A stretch of 64,000 nt of DNA, taken from positions 1,674,001 to 1,738,000 of the forward strand of contig SMLU01000001.1 in NCBI GenBank assembly GCA_007859745.1. Reading direction: 5' to 3'. The notes beneath the pieces were generated by a model. It was given only the letters and a program-made list of their open reading frames with translations, was not told the DNA's origin and did not search any database. Positions 23,091-34,157 of this stretch are shown here, piece by piece. This stretch comes from Phycisphaerae bacterium RAS1 (GTDB lineage: Bacteria; Planctomycetota; Phycisphaerae; UBA1845; Fen-1342). Position 1 is the first letter of the stretch. Every line of letters begins with the position of its first letter. A program made the translations under genes and the position numbers.

Positions 23091-23228
23091 AGATTGTGGT
23101 CGCAGCCTGCTGCGCGTTCTCAAGCTCACTCGCGCGGCACGTTTTGGGGGAAACCAGCTTCGCAGTTTTCCCCCAAACCCCCTTCCTTGAGCTTCTTCCC
23201 CTCCACCGGAAGAGCGGAGGACCTTCCC

Positions 23229-24014
23229 ATGAATGATGCGCTTCGCACCGCCCTGACCCGCCTGCGCCTGTCAGGCCTGGCCGGCTCGCTCGATGTTCGA
23301 CTTCAGGAAGCGACTGGCAATCGCCTCGGCCACGCCGAGTTCCTCGAGCTGGTGCTCCAGGATGAGCTGCTCGTCCGCAACGACCGGCTGATCAGCCGCC
23401 GCACCAAGGCCGCCGGCTTCCGTGAACACAAGACGCTCGACGACTTCGACTGGCAGTTCAACCCATCCATCAAGCGCAAGCCGGTATTCGATCTGGCCGC
23501 CGGCCGCTTCATCCGCGAAGCCCGCGACGTGCTGCTGCTCGGTCCGCCCGGCACGGGCAAGAGCCATCTGGCTCAGGCCATCGGCCACGCCGTCATCAAG
23601 GCCGGCTGCACCGTGCTCTACCGTTCGATCTTCGACCTGGTCCGCGACTTCCTCTCCGACGAGGCCCTCGGCGGACAGGACAAAACGCTGGAACGCTACC
23701 TGCGGCCCGACCTCGTGATCATCGACGACATGGGCATGAAGCAGTTGCCGAAACGGTCGGGCGAATACCTGTTCGAGATCATCATGCGCCGCTACCAGGT
23801 CCGCTCGACCATGATGACCAGCAACCGGCCGCTGGAAGACTGGGGCAAACTCATCGGCGACGTGCCCAGCGCCACCGCCATCCTCGACCGTTTCCTGCAC
23901 AACGCCGAAGTCATCACCATCAACAGCCGCAGCTACCGACTCAAGGATCACAAACCGGCCCCCGGCAGCGAGAAAGCGAAAGCAGAGGCCGCTTGCGAAC
24001 CCGTGGAGAAATGA
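23229..24014 (+). CDS. istB: IS21-family helper ATPase IstB
   Basis: A 261-aa AAA+ ATPase of the DnaC/IstB type that helps IstA choose targets. GPPGTGKS (105-112) is Walker A and LVIIDDMG (162-169) is Walker B; a YRSIFDLVRDF stretch and the C-terminal SYRLKDH are typical of the family. GGAGG stands 7 bases before the ATG. The 138-base gap from istA is unusually long for this pair and lacks a clear promoter. The domain layout and length match complete family members. Confidence 0.96.
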   Translation: MNDALRTALTRLRLSGLAGSLDVRLQEATGNRLGHAEFLELVLQDELLVRNDRLISRRTKAAGFREHKTLDDFDWQFNPSIKRKPVFDLAAGRFIREARDVLLLGPPGTGKSHLAQAIGHAVIKAGCTVLYRSIFDLVRDFLSDEALGGQDKTLERYLRPDLVIIDDMGMKQLPKRSGEYLFEIIMRRYQVRSTMMTSNRPLEDWGKLIGDVPSATAILDRFLHNAEVITINSRSYRLKDHKPAPGSEKAKAEAACEPVEK

Positions 24015-24474: not shown

Positions 24475-26277
24475 ATGGACGCCTCCCACTGGCCATGCCG
24501 CGGCGTGGCCGAGCACGCATATTGTCCGCGCCTCTTCTACTACATGACAGTAGAAGGTGTCTTCCTGCCCAGCGCGGATACCGAGCAGGGCGCCGGCGTT
24601 CACACGAGAGTAGATCGACCGAGCGAAGCCCCGCCCGCACCTGCAACCAACGGTAACAACGGTCGCCGCAAGAAAACGGTCGAGAAGCTGGAGGAGTCGG
24701 AACCGACGGCCGACCCAGACCGGCCGCGATCCGTCAGAAGTCTCGCTCTGACCAGCGACCGGCTCGGCCTGACCGCCAAGCTCGACATAGCCGAGATTCA
24801 GGGCACCACGGCCATCCCGGTCGAGTACCGCAAGGGGCGGCCGAAACGCTCCGGCGAAATTGCCGAACCCACCGACGAGATGATGGAGCAACCCCGTTTG
24901 CTCCCAGGCCCCGAGCCGTGGCCGACCGACCGGGTGCAGATCGGCTTGCAGGCGATTCTGCTTGAAGAGGCCGGATACACCGTCACGGAGGCGTACCTCT
25001 ATTACGCCGCCGAGCGGCTGAAACTCCGTGTGCCCGTTGACGATGAGCTGAAGCGCGAAGCGCTCGCTGAATTGGACGCAGCCAAACGAGACGCCGGGGG
25101 ACAGCGCCCGCCGCCGCTGGTCAACGATCCACGCTGCCCGCGATGTTCACTCCAGCCGATCTGCCTGCCCGACGAGATCAACCACCAACGCCTTACAGCG
25201 CTTACTATCAACGGTCAGGCGACGGACGAGCAGACGACGCCACGAAAGCTCTGGCCGCCGCGTGACGACGGCATTCATGTGGTTCTCCAGCGCGAGGGCA
25301 TCCGGATCGGAGTACGCGGACAATCTGTCCGCGTCACCGACAAGGATGGAGAGCTGGTCCGCGATTTCCCGCTCGCCAACCTGGAATCGCTGGCCGTGCT
25401 CGGGGGCGTGCAGATATCGACGCAGGCGCTCTCCGTCTTCGCGGACAATGAAGTACCTGTTGCATACCTGACAGCTGCCGGCCGCCTGGTCGCGATGATG
25501 GACCCGCTCGGACCCACCAGTGCCGCCGTTCGCGCCGCTCAAATCCGCGTGCTCGACCGCCCGGAGAAGGCGCTTGAACTCGCACGCGCCGTCACCGTGG
25601 CGAAGATCGCCAACCAGCGCACGCTGTTGATGCGTAACCACGCCGCGCTTCCGTCGCGCGTTGCCGCCGACATGCAGGAGAGCGTTTCCGCCGCGGAGCG
25701 AGCGACCACGTTGGACGAACTTCGCGGACACGAAGGCAATGCCGCCGCTATTTACTTCGCTCACTTCGCCGGGATGTTCAAGGAAGGCGTCAAGGGGATC
25801 GCCGCTCGTTTCGACACCAACGGCCGTCAGCGCCGGCCGCCGCCCGATCCGGTTAACGCCGTGCTGTCGTTCGCGTATTCGATGCTGACCAACGAATGCA
25901 CGGCGGCGTGCCGGCTCGCAAGCCTGGAGCCAACACTCGGGGCACTCCACGCCACGCGACCCGGCCGCCCCGCGCTCGCCTTGGACCTCATGGAGCCATT
26001 CCGACCGCTCATCGCCGATTCCATCGCCGTCTCCGCATTCAACCGCGGCGAACTGACCGAAGGGCACTTCCTCGACACGGCCGCAGGCTGCGCCCTGACC
26101 GACGCCGGACGCAAGGGGTTTTTCTCCGCGTACGGCCGGCGGATGGACACCGAAGTGTCTCACCCGGCCTTCGAGTACCGGCTCAGCTACCGCCGGATGC
26201 TCATTCTTCACGCCCGCCTTGTCGCCGCGTGGCTGCTCGGCGAGGTGCCGACGCTGGCGTTCCTGACGACGAGGTAA
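24475..26277 (+). CDS. cas4-cas1: Cas4-Cas1 fusion (CRISPR adaptation)
   Basis: A 600-aa fusion that trims and integrates new spacers together with Cas2. The Cas4 part (1-235) has HAYCPRLFYY (C17), GVHTRVD (H43), AKLDIAEI (D104) and PVEYRKG (117-119), and the iron-sulfur cysteines C221, C224 and C230 (RCPRCSLQPIC). The usual catalytic Lys of the (D/E)xK motif reads Arg here, next to a Lys. The Cas1 part (about 260-600) has the metal ligands E420 (GHEGNAAAIYF), H492 (LHATRPGRPAL) and E507 (DLMEPFRPL). Such fusions are typical of type I-U/I-G and V-B systems. A charged linker (about 50-90, RRKKTVEKLEESE) interrupts Cas4. cas2 starts 4 bases after the stop. Confidence 0.96.
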   Translation: MDASHWPCRGVAEHAYCPRLFYYMTVEGVFLPSADTEQGAGVHTRVDRPSEAPPAPATNGNNGRRKKTVEKLEESEPTADPDRPRSVRSLALTSDRLGLTAKLDIAEIQGTTAIPVEYRKGRPKRSGEIAEPTDEMMEQPRLLPGPEPWPTDRVQIGLQAILLEEAGYTVTEAYLYYAAERLKLRVPVDDELKREALAELDAAKRDAGGQRPPPLVNDPRCPRCSLQPICLPDEINHQRLTALTINGQATDEQTTPRKLWPPRDDGIHVVLQREGIRIGVRGQSVRVTDKDGELVRDFPLANLESLAVLGGVQISTQALSVFADNEVPVAYLTAAGRLVAMMDPLGPTSAAVRAAQIRVLDRPEKALELARAVTVAKIANQRTLLMRNHAALPSRVAADMQESVSAAERATTLDELRGHEGNAAAIYFAHFAGMFKEGVKGIAARFDTNGRQRRPPPDPVNAVLSFAYSMLTNECTAACRLASLEPTLGALHATRPGRPALALDLMEPFRPLIADSIAVSAFNRGELTEGHFLDTAAGCALTDAGRKGFFSAYGRRMDTEVSHPAFEYRLSYRRMLILHARLVAAWLLGEVPTLAFLTTR

Positions 26278-26281
26278 CGCC

Positions 26282-26572
26282 ATGCGCCGCTGCTATCTCG
26301 TCTGCTACGACGTGCGGAACGACAAGCGCCTCCGCCGCATCCATAAGGTGATGAAGGCGTACGGCGAGCCGTGGCAGTATTCCGTGTTCTACTGCACGCT
26401 CAAGGCCATCGACCGCGTCCGCCTTGAGAACGCCGCTCGTGAGGTGCTGAACCTGAGAGAAGATCAGCTCCTCATTGTGGACTTGGGCAGCAACGAGGAA
26501 GCCGCCCGCGAAGCCGCGACGGTTCTGGGGGAAAGTTTGCCCGACGCGGAGACCGGAACCGTCGTGATCTGA
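26282..26572 (+). CDS. cas2: CRISPR-associated endoribonuclease-fold protein Cas2
   Basis: A 96-aa Cas2 that forms the centre of the Cas1-Cas2 integrase. MRRCYLVCYDV shows the first beta strand with the conserved Asp at position 10, followed by NDKRLRRIHKVMKAYG and the strand WQYSVFYCTL. The ferredoxin-like layout and size match the family. It lies between cas4-cas1 (4-base gap) and cas12b (24-base gap), one operon. Confidence 0.96.
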   Translation: MRRCYLVCYDVRNDKRLRRIHKVMKAYGEPWQYSVFYCTLKAIDRVRLENAAREVLNLREDQLLIVDLGSNEEAAREAATVLGESLPDAETGTVVI

Positions 26573-29500: not shown

Positions 29501-31024
29501 ACATGGACGCAGCACATCGTGCCGAGGCTGTCCGCTGAACTGCCAACGCTCTCGGAGGAAGCCGACCGCTGGGAGCGCAAGCGCCATCGAGTCGCCCTGG
29601 AGGTTGCGCTTGATCCTGTCGCTTTTGCACTCGTCAGCGACGGCGCAGCGCGGCTGCACACGCTTTGGTCGGATCGATGGAAGACCGACAACTCGGCATG
29701 GCGCCCTCGATTGAAGTGGCTGCGACGCTGGGTGCTGCCTCGCAGCCTGCGTCCAGTTCCCGGTGAGTCCGCGCAGCAGGGTGCGAACCGCAAGGCGCGT
29801 CGTGGGGCCGCGCGACACGTTGGCGGACTGTCGCTCACGCGTATTGCCACCATCCGGGAGCTGTACCAGGCTCAGAAGGCGTACGCCATGCGCCCGGAGC
29901 CGGACGACCTCCGAAAGAACATCGCCGCCAAGGACGATGATCGGTTCGACGAGTTTGGCCGTTCGGTTCTGGAGGTGGTCGAGCGCTTACGCGAGCAACG
30001 TGTCAAACAACTCGCGAGCCGAATCGCTGAGGCTGCGCTGGGTATCGGGCGGATGTCGCGGGTTCCCGACCGGGACCGTATGCGGCCGACCGAACAGGTT
30101 GATGAGCCTTGCCACGCCGTCGTCATTGAGAATCTTCGCAACTACCGGCCCGACGAACTCCAGACGCGGCGCGAGAATCGATCGCTCATGAACTGGTCCG
30201 CCGGCAAGGTGCGCAAGTACCTGGGCGAGGCTTGCCAACTCCGCGGCCTGCACCTGCGCGAGGTCATGCCCAACTACACCAGCCGCCAGTGCAGTCGAAC
30301 TGGCCTTCCAGGTCTGCGCTGCGACGACGTTCCGATCGCGGACTTCCTCAACTCGCCGTGGTGGACGAAGCTGGTGAACGCGGCCGAGAAGCGGCTCAAC
30401 GAGAACGGAATCGACTCGCTCGACCGGTTCTTGGTTGCCTTGCGAAAGCGATGGACGACTGCGAACGACACGGAAAAGTCGAAGCAGCGTACGCTTCGCG
30501 TTCCGCGGCTGGGAGGCGACCTGTTCATCGCTGCCGCCCCGGCGGACAGTACCAACGGCTCGCTCAGTCGAGTTATTCAAGCCGATCTTAACGCCGCAGC
30601 GAACATCGGCCTGCGTGCCATCATCGACCCGGACTTTCCGGCCAAGTGGTGGTACGTGCCGTGCATCGACGACAAGGCGGCCGGCACGGCGTTGCCGAGA
30701 ACAGACAAGGTGAAAGGCTCGGCTTGCTTCGGGCCGGACCCAGCGAAGCCCGAGCAGTTTGGATCGTTCATCACGCCCGGTGCTGCGGCGGCGCCAGATG
30801 GAAAAGCCGGCAAGAAGAAACGCACCGCGGATGCGGAAGCGAAGGAGACGACCAACTTCTGGTCCGACCCCAAAGCTGCATCGCTTCGTAACGCGGCTGA
30901 TCAAGGGTTCTGGCTTCGCACGCCCGCCTACTGGCGGTGGGTTCGAAAGCGCGTCGTCGCGTCGCTGTGGGACGCAAATGGGCTGACGAGCGGCCCTCCT
31001 GATCTTGTCCCCGACCCTGAATAA
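26597..31024 (+). CDS. cas12b: Type V-B effector Cas12b (large form)
   Basis: A 1475-aa single RNA-guided DNA nuclease, the interference effector. The split RuvC site is intact: GLRVLSVDLGHRYAAS (D767), HAVVIENLRNYRPD (E1178) and SRVIQADLNAAANIG (D1330). Before motif III it has NYTSRQCSRTGLPGLRCDDV, matching the Cas12b segment SSRFDARTGAPGIRCRRV. The N terminus (RAYTLRLRGVD ... ALWATHEAINHGTRAFGNWL) matches the Cas12b OBD/REC start, and FWLRTPAYWRWVRKR matches the end. Compared with the 1129-aa Alicyclobacillus protein (D570/E848/D977, recalled), the part before D767 is about 200 residues longer and the RuvC I-II span about 130 longer. An Ala/Lys-rich insert lies at 1393-1420. Neighbouring cas4-cas1, cas2, tracrRNA and array confirm type V-B. 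Confidence 0.94.
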   Translation: MARSPDSAANPPVLDTPLTQRAYTLRLRGVDPSDSAWRNALWATHEAINHGTRAFGNWLLTLRGGLSHELAEPPLAKGKRRTDEETAALRKNRRTLLALSWLSVEDERGAPENLARVATGADSDAPRREKVIAALRAILTARRVAKKEVESWIADCGDSLSSRIRDDAAWINRSAAFDAAKAEVGPSLTRDEVWDVLEPFFASRESYFAQIELADDDSGAEEKAKDLVQKAGQWLSSRFGTGTGADFESMAKVYSAMAKWAAGAPSFRSGVDALRELGESLSRFKPGSTDTDGILALISGPGYKSATRNIVRTWGERAGTVPKADLAKFAGVAAEDEAKCKANVGGKGRRPWSDQVLASVERACGFTYLQKNGPARHSEFAVMLDHAARRVSIGHSWIKRAEAERRRFEADAQRLSQVPAATKVWLDKFVHVRSGTSGAAAAGGEYRIRRRAIEGWDEIVKRWKRAACKSKEDRVSVAREVQSDPDIDKFGDIQLFEALAADDAECVWRLDGKADSQSLKDYVFGHDARDKMRRFKVPAFRHPDPLRHPVFGDFGNSRWAIEYAVHQAAKAGRSKRAPATGDEEWLKSRHGLRMGLWDGEAVREVPLRWSSKRLSNDLALGSPAAGGPVRNVARADRLGRAASGLKPGERPATAGLFALADWNGRLQAPRAQLDAIAACIERNAGKWDEKARKLRDHIEWLVTFSAKLECQGPFMAYAAQFGDDAPAKPFVSRKGELAVKHATNDDRHGHAKLILSRLPGLRVLSVDLGHRYAASCAVWETLSLSALKKETAGRAVGGGGAAKQHLFLHTRHTDARGNERTTIYRRIGGDRLPDGSEHPAPWARLDRQFLIKLQGEEAPARKASPEEINAVRGMETELGRLRDERNPLPMRVDELMAEATRTIRLGLRRLGDSARIAYAFKPDAARLLPGGGAAEHTPETRKDAMLDALMRWHDLATGDRWTDPVAKTTWTQHIVPRLSAELPTLSEEADRWERKRHRVALEVALDPVAFALVSDGAARLHTLWSDRWKTDNSAWRPRLKWLRRWVLPRSLRPVPGESAQQGANRKARRGAARHVGGLSLTRIATIRELYQAQKAYAMRPEPDDLRKNIAAKDDDRFDEFGRSVLEVVERLREQRVKQLASRIAEAALGIGRMSRVPDRDRMRPTEQVDEPCHAVVIENLRNYRPDELQTRRENRSLMNWSAGKVRKYLGEACQLRGLHLREVMPNYTSRQCSRTGLPGLRCDDVPIADFLNSPWWTKLVNAAEKRLNENGIDSLDRFLVALRKRWTTANDTEKSKQRTLRVPRLGGDLFIAAAPADSTNGSLSRVIQADLNAAANIGLRAIIDPDFPAKWWYVPCIDDKAAGTALPRTDKVKGSACFGPDPAKPEQFGSFITPGAAAAPDGKAGKKKRTADAEAKETTNFWSDPKAASLRNAADQGFWLRTPAYWRWVRKRVVASLWDANGLTSGPPDLVPDPE

Positions 31025-31033
31025 TGATAGATT
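31005..31033 (+). promoter_or_regulatory. Possible promoter of the tracrRNA
   Basis: TTGTCC (31005-31010) and TAGATT (31028-31033) are 17 bases apart and each match four of six bases of the sigma-70 consensus. They would start transcription at about 31040, just before the first tracrRNA hairpin. The -35 lies inside the end of cas12b. Weak by sequence alone. Confidence 0.3.
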
Positions 31034-31035
31034 CG

Positions 31036-31144
31036 TACAGCCCCTACAGGGGGCCGCAACTCCGAGCATGTGTCTTCCCCTTCGATGGGCTCGGCACTCG
31101 GCATTTATCAGGTTCGCGTTGGCCCCGTCGGGGCCTTTGATCTT
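31036..31144 (+). ncRNA. tracrRNA of the type V-B system
   Basis: The stretch 31102-31124 pairs with repeat positions 31 down to 9: 19 Watson-Crick pairs, 3 G-U wobbles and 1 mismatch in 23. GTGTC at 31070-31074 also pairs perfectly with GACAC, the last five bases of the repeat. Before these come a CCCC-TACA-GGGG hairpin (31041-31052) and a stem CCGAGC (31062-31067)/GCTCGG (31089-31094) that encloses the GTGTC. This order (5' hairpin, closed stem holding the second anti-repeat, long anti-repeat) is that of known Cas12b tracrRNAs. It ends in GGCCCC-GTC-GGGGCC and TTTGATCTTT, a likely terminator. The exact ends are estimates. Confidence 0.84.
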
Positions 31145-31352
31145 TGACAAGTCGGTTTTCGCGGCCCCGCCGCGAGTGCGATGGTGGTGACGGGGAGTCC
31201 CGGCCACGCTCGCACTCGCAGAATCTCGGCTGATTCTCGCGGTTTTTGCCGCGTCCGGAGTGCAGAAAGTGACCGTCCGATTGTTCCAAAATCGCCCATG
31301 CTCGCCAGAGGCCACGCAAGTGGCCTGTTTTCAAGGGTTTGCGAGAGCGGCA
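31145..31352 (+). promoter_or_regulatory. CRISPR leader with several hairpins
   Basis: About 210 bases between the tracrRNA and the first repeat. GCGAGTGCGA (31172-31181) and TCGCACTCGC (31210-31219) form a perfect 10-bp inverted repeat. GAATC/GATTC (31221-31236), CGCGG-TTTTTG-CCGCG (31238-31253) and GGCCAC-GCAA-GTGGCC (31310-31325) with TGTTTT follow. New spacers would be added next to the right edge. The hairpins may be protein-binding sites or control of tracrRNA and pre-crRNA transcription; this is inferred. Confidence 0.5.
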
Positions 31353-34157
31353 GCCGCGGAGGCCGACGCGGCCCTGATGAATGGACACTTTGGCTCTAAT
31401 CCAGTCCGCGCGACCACATCCGCCGCGGAGGCCGACGCGGCCCTGATGAATGGACACCGCGCGGCTTTCCGCGAATGCACCGATCAGGGATGCCGCGGAG
31501 GCCGACGCGGCCCTGATGAATGGACACCGGAACGCGGCCGGAGACGCGCGCATGCACGTCAGCGCCGCGGAGGCCGACGCGGCCCTGATGAATGGACACA
31601 TTGAGCAGCGGCCACGCCGGGCGTCGGAAGTGGGCCGCGGAGGCCGACGCGGCCCTGATGAATGGACACGTCCGCTCGTGCGCTGGTCTCCATTTGTTCA
31701 TGGCCGCGGAGGCCGACGCGGCCCTGATGAATGGACACTCGAGTTCCATGTGTTCGAGGGCGCGCAGCAACCGCCGCGGAGGCCGACGCGGCCCTGATGA
31801 ATGGACACCGGGCAGGATGGATCTGTACGTCACGAACCGCATTTCCGCCGCGGAGGCCGACGCGGCCCTGATGAATGGACACCGCGGTCTTTGGCCCGAC
31901 CCACTTAACCACCTCGCCGCGGAGGCCGACGCGGCCCTGATGAATGGACACATTACCTTCTCGCAGAACGTTGCCGTGCAACGCCACGCCGCGGAGGCCG
32001 ACGCGGCCCTGATGAATGGACACAAGTCGCCGGCGGCCAGTGCATCACGGATGCCGCCGCCGCGGAGGCCGACGCGGCCCTGATGAATGGACACTGAAGG
32101 CCGGACTTGTGTTCGTCGGGTCCGCGTTCGCCGCGGAGGCCGACGCGGCCCTGATGAATGGACACTCCGCGCACGCCGTAAATATATACAGTCTCCGAGC
32201 TGCCGCGGAGGCCGACGCGGCCCTGATGAATGGACACTGTACGGCGTCTGACGGTTGACTGGTGCACGCCGATCGCCGCGGAGGCCGACGCGGCCCTGAT
32301 GAATGGACACTCGGTCATCGTCGCAACCGGCGTGCTGGCGGCGGTGCCGCGGAGGCCGACGCGGCCCTGATGAATGGACACAATTGCTCCGGCTCGTTCT
32401 GGACGCCGCCCAGCCGCGCCGCGGAGGCCGACGCGGCCCTGATGAATGGACACCTGAAGGCCGCGGCTGCGAACGGCTACAACGATGGCGCCGCGGAGGC
32501 CGACGCGGCCCTGATGAATGGACACAAAAGCGCGACGTTCTCGTTGCCACCGAACGTCCCGCCGCGGAGGCCGACGCGGCCCTGATGAATGGACACCTCG
32601 ATAATCAGTCTCGTCGTCGTCATTGTCCTGCGCCGCGGAGGCCGACGCGGCCCTGATGAATGGACACTTCCCTCCTCCTCGATCGCGGGCGCGCGTAATG
32701 AGCCGCGGAGGCCGACGCGGCCCTGATGAATGGACACAAGCACGGCCTGGGACTTCAGGAACTCTTGCTGAGCCGCGGAGGCCGACGCGGCCCTGATGAA
32801 TGGACACCCCATTGTGGTTTCCTATTCGTCCAGTTCGGAGTCGCCGCGGAGGCCGACGCGGCCCTGATGAATGGACACGCGGCGTTCAAGCGGAAGTGAG
32901 CCAGGGAGGCCGGAGCCGCGGAGGCCGACGCGGCCCTGATGAATGGACACAAAAATTGGAGTTGCCATAGTGTCCTTTCAAAAGTGCCGCGGAGGCCGAC
33001 GCGGCCCTGATGAATGGACACTCTAGCCAGTCAGCACGTCGTGCTCACGGACGCGCCGCCGCGGAGGCCGACGCGGCCCTGATGAATGGACACGACCTTA
33101 AACTCGGAATTCGGAATGATCTCGAAGGCCGCGGAGGCCGACGCGGCCCTGATGAATGGACACGATGCGCCGCTCACAACTCCGGGGCACCCAGGGGCCG
33201 CGGAGGCCGACGCGGCCCTGATGAATGGACACTAGACCCGGGCATCGGCCAAGCGCTTCGCGCCGTGCCGCGGAGGCCGACGCGGCCCTGATGAATGGAC
33301 ACAACTCGATCGCGCGGACGAACGTCGCCGCGAGCTGGGGCCGCGGAGGCCGACGCGGCCCTGATGAATGGACACGTTACCTCTTGCTACGCTGTACTTC
33401 ACGCGGAAAAGCGCCGCGGAGGCCGACGCGGCCCTGATGAATGGACACGATTCGCCCGCCGCCCGCGTGGCGTCGGCGCGTGCCGCGGAGGCCGACGCGG
33501 CCCTGATGAATGGACACTGGCAGACGGAGACCATTGCGACCGTGCGCTTCGAAGCCGCGGAGGCCGACGCGGCCCTGATGAATGGACACGGCGCGGGCGG
33601 CGCTGCCAAGCAGACTGTCACGGGGCCGCGGAGGCCGACGCGGCCCTGATGAATGGACACTTCTCTGGCGGAAAGCAGCGGACGGTTCGCGAGGCGGCCG
33701 CGGAGGCCGACGCGGCCCTGATGAATGGACACTGCGTAGCGAGTCGTGGGACGGGACGGGCGTGCGACGCCGCGGAGGCCGACGCGGCCCTGATGAATGG
33801 ACACCGTTGGTCGGAAACGAGAGCCGGAACCCGAGCTTCGCCGCGGAGGCCGACGCGGCCCTGATGAATGGACACTCGAATCCGAAGGCTCGTCGGTGTA
33901 ACCGAAGAGCCGCGGAGGCCGACGCGGCCCTGATGAATGGACACCGTCACGTCGCCGCTCACGTCGACGCGCTTCATCCGCCGCGGAGGCCGACGCGGCC
34001 CTGATGAATGGACACCCATCCCCTGGATATACCACTCGCGCCAGGGGTAGTGCCGCGGAGGCCGACGCGGCCCTGATGAATGGACACGGCGGTTTCGCGC
34101 CCTTGGTCCCTCGATCCCTTGGCCGCGGAGGCCGACGCGGCCCTGATGAATGGACAC
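31353..34157 (+). CRISPR. Type V-B CRISPR array, 40 repeats and 39 spacers
   Basis: A 36-bp repeat beginning GCCGCGGAGGCC and ending GATGAATGGACAC occurs 40 times; unit starts are 69-74 bases apart, so spacers are 33-38 bases. All repeats appear identical on reading, including the last (34122-34157). The 3' end GAATGGACAC resembles the GAAGTGGCAC end of other V-B repeats, and the tracrRNA pairs with this strand, so the array is read on the plus strand from the leader at its left. Spacers are all different. I did not see a spacer matching elsewhere in the window, but only by eye. Confidence 0.99.

Follow-up and report, generated by a model that had tools for sequence, protein, structure and literature searches.

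Published Cas12b guides combine a bulged long duplex with a short duplex of 5-7 bp and a pseudoknot (PMC11246509), and in the systems tested the tracrRNA is encoded in the interval from Cas12b to the array (PMC6342934). The window, meaning the whole 64,000-nt stretch of DNA analysed here, carries a complete type V-B locus in which a cas4-cas1 fusion, cas2, Cas12b and a CRISPR array adjoin (Table 1). The RuvC residues of the effector were assigned by motif as D767, E1178 and D1330, and the motifs DLGHR, IEN and DLNAAAN were all found. A 328-nt gap separates the stop codon of cas12b (31024) from the first repeat (31353). It includes the region of interest and, judged from sequence, positions 31040 to about 31135-31144 are very probably the tracrRNA gene of this locus. 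The original prediction was of an RNA that pairs with the repeat in two places in the manner of characterised Cas12b guides; it holds when set against the published layout (PMC11246509) and is supported by covariation of the long duplex, compensatory change in the short duplex, a promoter-like element, the position of the gene and its co-occurrence with Cas12b. No family in an Rfam search of the window covers the tracrRNA. An RNase III gene is present, and a gene for an IS21-like helper ATPase, IstB (23094-24014; NF038214, 241 bits), lies directly upstream of the cas genes.

Table 1. Positions, in the window, of the putative tracrRNA elements and of the surrounding type V-B locus
Feature	Position	Strand	Evidence or remark
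cas4-cas1 fusion	24475..26277	+	NF049935, 619 bits
cas2	26282..26572	+	TIGR01573, 36 bits (cut-off 24.5)
Cas12b effector, 1475 aa	26597..31024	+	NF033949, 1201 bits (cut-off 150)
-35-like TTGTCC	31005..31010	+	within end of cas12b
-10-like TAGATT with TG extension	31028..31033	+	predicted start near 31040
5' hairpin GCCCCT-ACA-GGGGGC	31040..31054	+	
P1 stem, 5' arm CCGAG	31062..31066	+	pairs with arm at anti-repeat, 21/21 systems
Short anti-repeat GTGTC	31070..31074	+	complement of repeat bases 32-36 (GACAC), 21/21 systems
Inner hairpin CCC-TTCGAT-GGG	31078..31089	+	CCC/GGG, GCC/GGC, CGC/GCG in relatives
GGCAC, internal look-alike of repeat end	31093..31097	+	can pair with short anti-repeat
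P1 stem, 3' arm CTCGG	31097..31101	+	abuts anti-repeat
Long anti-repeat CATTTATCAGGTTCGCGTTGGCC	31102..31124	+	pairs with repeat bases 31-9; pairing, genome-wide uniqueness, covariation
3' hairpin GGCCCC-GTC-GGGGCC	31121..31135	+	overlaps last four anti-repeat bases; possible terminator
CRISPR array	31353..34157	+	40 identical 36-nt repeats, 39 spacers of 33-38 nt

For the long anti-repeat, the original prediction counted 22 pairs, three of them wobbles, over the 23 positions facing repeat bases 31-9; a letter-by-letter check of the coordinates confirmed this, giving 19 Watson-Crick pairs, three G-U pairs and a single mismatch at repeat base 20. In a pattern search of the 5.5-Mb genome with G-U pairs allowed, this was the one site to match repeat bases 31-10 without a mismatch, besides the repeats' own minus strand. 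Relatives were collected by searching for Cas12b, which gave a match in 7 of the 392 genomes sampled from the phylum and in 21 of 397 of the class, to which two MAGs were added; for each locus the repeat was derived and the preceding DNA scanned for an anti-repeat. The two-duplex layout was found in 21 type V-B loci, 20 from Planctomycetota and one from Alicyclobacillus. In the 20 non-redundant Planctomycetota systems the anti-repeat starts at the partner of repeat base 31, so that exactly the five final bases of the repeat stay free, and it lies about 200-300 nt 5' of the first repeat in all of them except G694, where it directly follows cas12b, 2.4 kb from the array. The anti-repeat of Alicyclobacillus dauci is shifted in register by one base and contains an internal loop.

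The repeats vary widely among these systems and the anti-repeats change along with them. Across 15 aligned systems, 16 of the 23 pairs are altered on both sides, with none of 500 shuffles as good, and register-slid controls leave at most 41% of cells paired, against 91% in the true register; given that related sequences are counted repeatedly as cells, the slid control and the differing sequences of distant systems weigh more than the shuffle count. The mismatch at repeat base 20 recurs as an unpaired position in 11 of these 15 systems, indicating that it is a conserved interruption. Given that the repeat and the region are GC-rich, it is conceivable that the complementarity arose by chance and that the real tracrRNA lies elsewhere or that none is needed: eight shuffled repeats score up to 37 in the window, where the repeat itself scores 58, and shuffled repeats exceed 40 in some relatives. 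This scenario is exceedingly improbable for three reasons: the site is unique in the genome, the register is fixed and accompanied by compensatory changes in about 20 systems, and the co-occurrence with Cas12b is exact. A tracrRNA on the minus strand was also considered and rejected, since in most systems the minus-strand anti-repeat scores stayed close to those of shuffled repeats. Co-folding of the repeat with the tracrRNA, proposed as a check on the original prediction, set the pair apart from 200 shuffled repeats only at z = -4, with one shuffle equalling it; the pseudoknot is beyond folding programs.

The second proposed contact, between GTGTC at 31070-31074 and the GACAC end of the repeat, is likewise supported by sequence. 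The short anti-repeat complements the last five repeat bases in all 21 systems, including A. dauci, which belongs to another phylum, and GACAC/GTGTC is replaced by GGCAC/GTGCC in G166, G505 and A. dauci. The duplex is invariant within the 15-sequence alignment, so that the support comes from these three divergent loci. Together, complementarity and compensatory change support a short duplex between crRNA and tracrRNA in the window. Within the free RNA, the same five bases are predicted to be closed by the internal GGCAC in most Planctomycetota systems, with a pairing of 0.90 in the window, and GGCA is conserved in 14 of the 15 aligned systems, more than stem P1 requires. This predicted fold, and the constancy of GTGTC within the alignment, raise the possibility that GTGTC serves mainly an internal hairpin with GGCAC, or a protein contact, and that the short crRNA duplex is minor. 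This is improbable, given that GTGTC becomes GTGCC exactly where the repeat ends in GGCAC, with no GGCAC partner retained in those three loci, and that one relative (L010) has lost GGCAC but kept GTGTC. Furthermore, the published Cas12b guides include a short duplex, and scrambling the anti-repeats removed activity in all cases but one (PMC11246509).

The short anti-repeat lies 1-3 nt after stem P1 (9 nt in G505), and P1 is kept in 21 of 21 systems in at least nine different sequences, for example CCGAG/CTCGG, CCACGG/CCGTGG, CCGCGGT/ACCGCGG, CTCGGGA/TCCCGAG and CCAACGG/CCGTTGG. Its 3' arm is at most 2 nt from the long anti-repeat in every system, and is 2 nt off in G368 and G615. A different partner had been proposed for the 5' arm, namely a nested stem of CCGAGC (31062-31067) with GCTCGG (31089-31094). 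The letters are present and pair perfectly in this genome; nevertheless this is very unlikely to be the functional stem, since no pair in it is altered on both sides and 80% of its cells are paired, no better than shuffles, while the alternative stem to 31097-31101 is kept with altered sequence in all 21 systems. Covariation and conservation thus identify P1 of the window as 31062-31066 with 31097-31101. The 5' hairpin, originally described as CCCC-TACA-GGGG, is present in the slightly longer form given in Table 1; most relatives have one, with a 5-10 bp stem of changing sequence and a 3-nt loop, but none was found in G368 and G615, where the inner hairpin is about 70-80 nt.

A covariance model (R1) of the scaffold alone was trained on eight systems, and the search for homologues suggested with the original prediction returned one match each in 17 of the 397 class genomes, all of which carry Cas12b. 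These 17 belong to the 21 genomes in which Cas12b was found, and the other 376 gave no match (Fisher p = 2e-26); ten of the 17 were outside the training set, although one of them (G454) differs very little from a sequence used in training. Four genomes with Cas12b escaped the model: G368 and G615, which have a different scaffold, G505, whose scaffold is distant, and G441 (L048), for which no anti-repeat was found on a 20-kb contig. In G060 (L049) there is an anti-repeat of somewhat different register and the layout does not clearly fit; the repeats of G441 and G060 end in GGCGG, not GACAC. In two loci, L068 (G368) and L070 (G615), the Cas12b is about 27-28% identical to that of the window in an otherwise related locus. 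In the annotation of the A. dauci plasmid, Cas12b (L050:3680-7044) is split into two reading frames that overlap, which may reflect a frameshift.

Upstream of the 5' hairpin, the pattern TGnTAnnnT was called by script in 13 of 21 systems, where 2.5% is expected from shuffles, and is visible in two more; in 12 of the 13 with a called extended -10, TTG lies exactly 17 nt before the -10. The window has the corresponding TTGTCC-17-TAGATT, an element that a strict consensus scan did not call. Just 3' of the tracrRNA, TTTGACAAGTCGG at 31143-31155 is conserved in nearly all relatives. Its TTTGACA (31143-31149) was considered as the -35 of an array promoter and rejected, as no -10 was seen by eye about 17 nt downstream in the window or in relatives. 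A dyad, GCGAGTGCGA...TCGCACTCGC, spans 31172-31219 around a conserved GGTGGTG-rich loop. Such a CGAG/CTCG dyad occurs about 124-152 nt before the first repeat in all but one of 22 systems, A. dauci among them, whereas its distance to the tracrRNA varies, which assigns it to the leader, where it is perhaps a site for spacer integration. Within the array, the spacer at 32095-32129 ends in TGTTCGTCGGGTCCGCGTTC. Together with the repeat bases that follow, this end can pair with repeat bases 31-9 in the register of the tracrRNA and with the same mismatch at base 20. All 39 spacers were tested; the score of 43 is attained by about 0.1% of shuffled ones, and no viral contig exactly matched the last 27 bases of the spacer. 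The match may be due to chance, or the spacer may come from a tracrRNA-like source.

The original prediction also held that the 3' part of the anti-repeat overlaps a terminator hairpin, such that the free RNA may fold on itself until displaced by the crRNA. The hairpin exists, but it is not conserved and is marginal as a terminator: it is the sole terminator-like site in the region, where 0.7 are expected by chance, and its tail, TTTGATCTTT, is a weak T-tract. Some relatives share it, and others use other closing partners or do without. Self-folding by this hairpin is plausible from the predicted structures, in which it is one way of closing the later anti-repeat; a better-conserved mask, covering the short anti-repeat, would be the internal GGCAC. 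The first nine anti-repeat bases are predicted to be mostly open (0.95 in the window, 0.64 on average) and the later ones mostly closed (0.31 open on average), and the repeat alone is predicted to fold in its 5' half, its 3' half being more open. This pattern fits pairing that begins at the exposed start and proceeds by strand exchange, which is close to the earlier idea.

In the proposed pathway, a promoter of its own, near the 3' end of cas12b, would drive the tracrRNA, and within the array transcript the unpaired 3' half of a repeat would first be contacted by the exposed anti-repeat bases 31102-31110. The contact may then grow by strand exchange into a duplex of about 23-29 bp, broken by the mismatch at repeat base 20, and the last five repeat bases could take the place of the internal GGCAC as partner of GTGTC, forming a pseudoknot with P1. 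The long duplex is presumably trimmed by RNase III, and Cas12b would bind the scaffold of 5' hairpin, P1 and inner hairpin, with the spacer as guide. As GGCAC resembles the end of the repeat, it may act as a gate on guide assembly.

Such a division of labour between scaffold and anti-repeat predicts that the scaffold may be exchanged together with the effector. The window and G368 share cas2 and have cas4-1 proteins of 89.5% amino-acid identity, whereas their Cas12b proteins are 28.5% identical with no nucleotide match. Between G368 and G534, whose Cas12b proteins are 27.1% identical, nucleotide similarity sets in one base ahead of the anti-repeat: identity is 93.5% over the 230 nt from that point, against 53.8% over the 80 nt preceding it, the shuffled level being about 53%. 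G615, from another genus, has an effector and scaffold of the G368 type (Cas12b 83% identical to that of G368). The simplest reading of these pairwise identities, which are neutral as to direction, is that in G368 and G615 cas12b and the tracrRNA scaffold were exchanged as one unit while the anti-repeat stayed with the leader and repeats. It can tentatively be suggested that the whole tracrRNA family is two-part, the scaffold travelling with cas12b and the anti-repeat with leader, repeats, cas4-1 and cas2, that natural hybrids arise at a joint at the first anti-repeat base, and that the near-copy GGCAC keeps the short anti-repeat closed until the crRNA arrives. The swap and the look-alike are the less expected parts of this account, the two-duplex layout being already known; a literature search of small and incomplete coverage found neither a swap at the anti-repeat joint nor a look-alike of the repeat end. 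The swap would show where a tracrRNA can be cut and rejoined, and it predicts that the scaffold accepts any anti-repeat.

Among described systems, the Bacillus hisashii / B. thermoamylovorans guide (PMC11246509; structure 5WTI) resembles that of the window in its interrupted long duplex, its 5-bp short duplex beside the guide and its pseudoknot; the sequences differ, and the likeness is one of duplex layout. The A. dauci plasmid (NZ_CP104065, L050) has the same order of 5' hairpin, P1, short anti-repeat, inner hairpin and P1' against the long anti-repeat, and its tracrRNA lies about 180 nt before the array, as that of the window lies between effector and array. It differs in its repeat end, GGCAC, in its short anti-repeat, GTGCC, in having no GGCAC look-alike and in its longer inner hairpin. 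At the protein level, the Cas12b (C2c1) of PDB 9KLN-9KLQ (1496 aa) aligns with that of the window over nearly its full length (1285 bits), both being unusually long at about 1.5 thousand residues. For the long-form Cas12b group of Planctomycetota, the layout given here is detailed enough that crRNA/tracrRNA pairs could be designed for about 20 apparently uncharacterised effectors. In summary, given the known Cas12b layout and a near full-length homologue with solved structures (9KLN), the putative tracrRNA of the window represents a further case of an established type.
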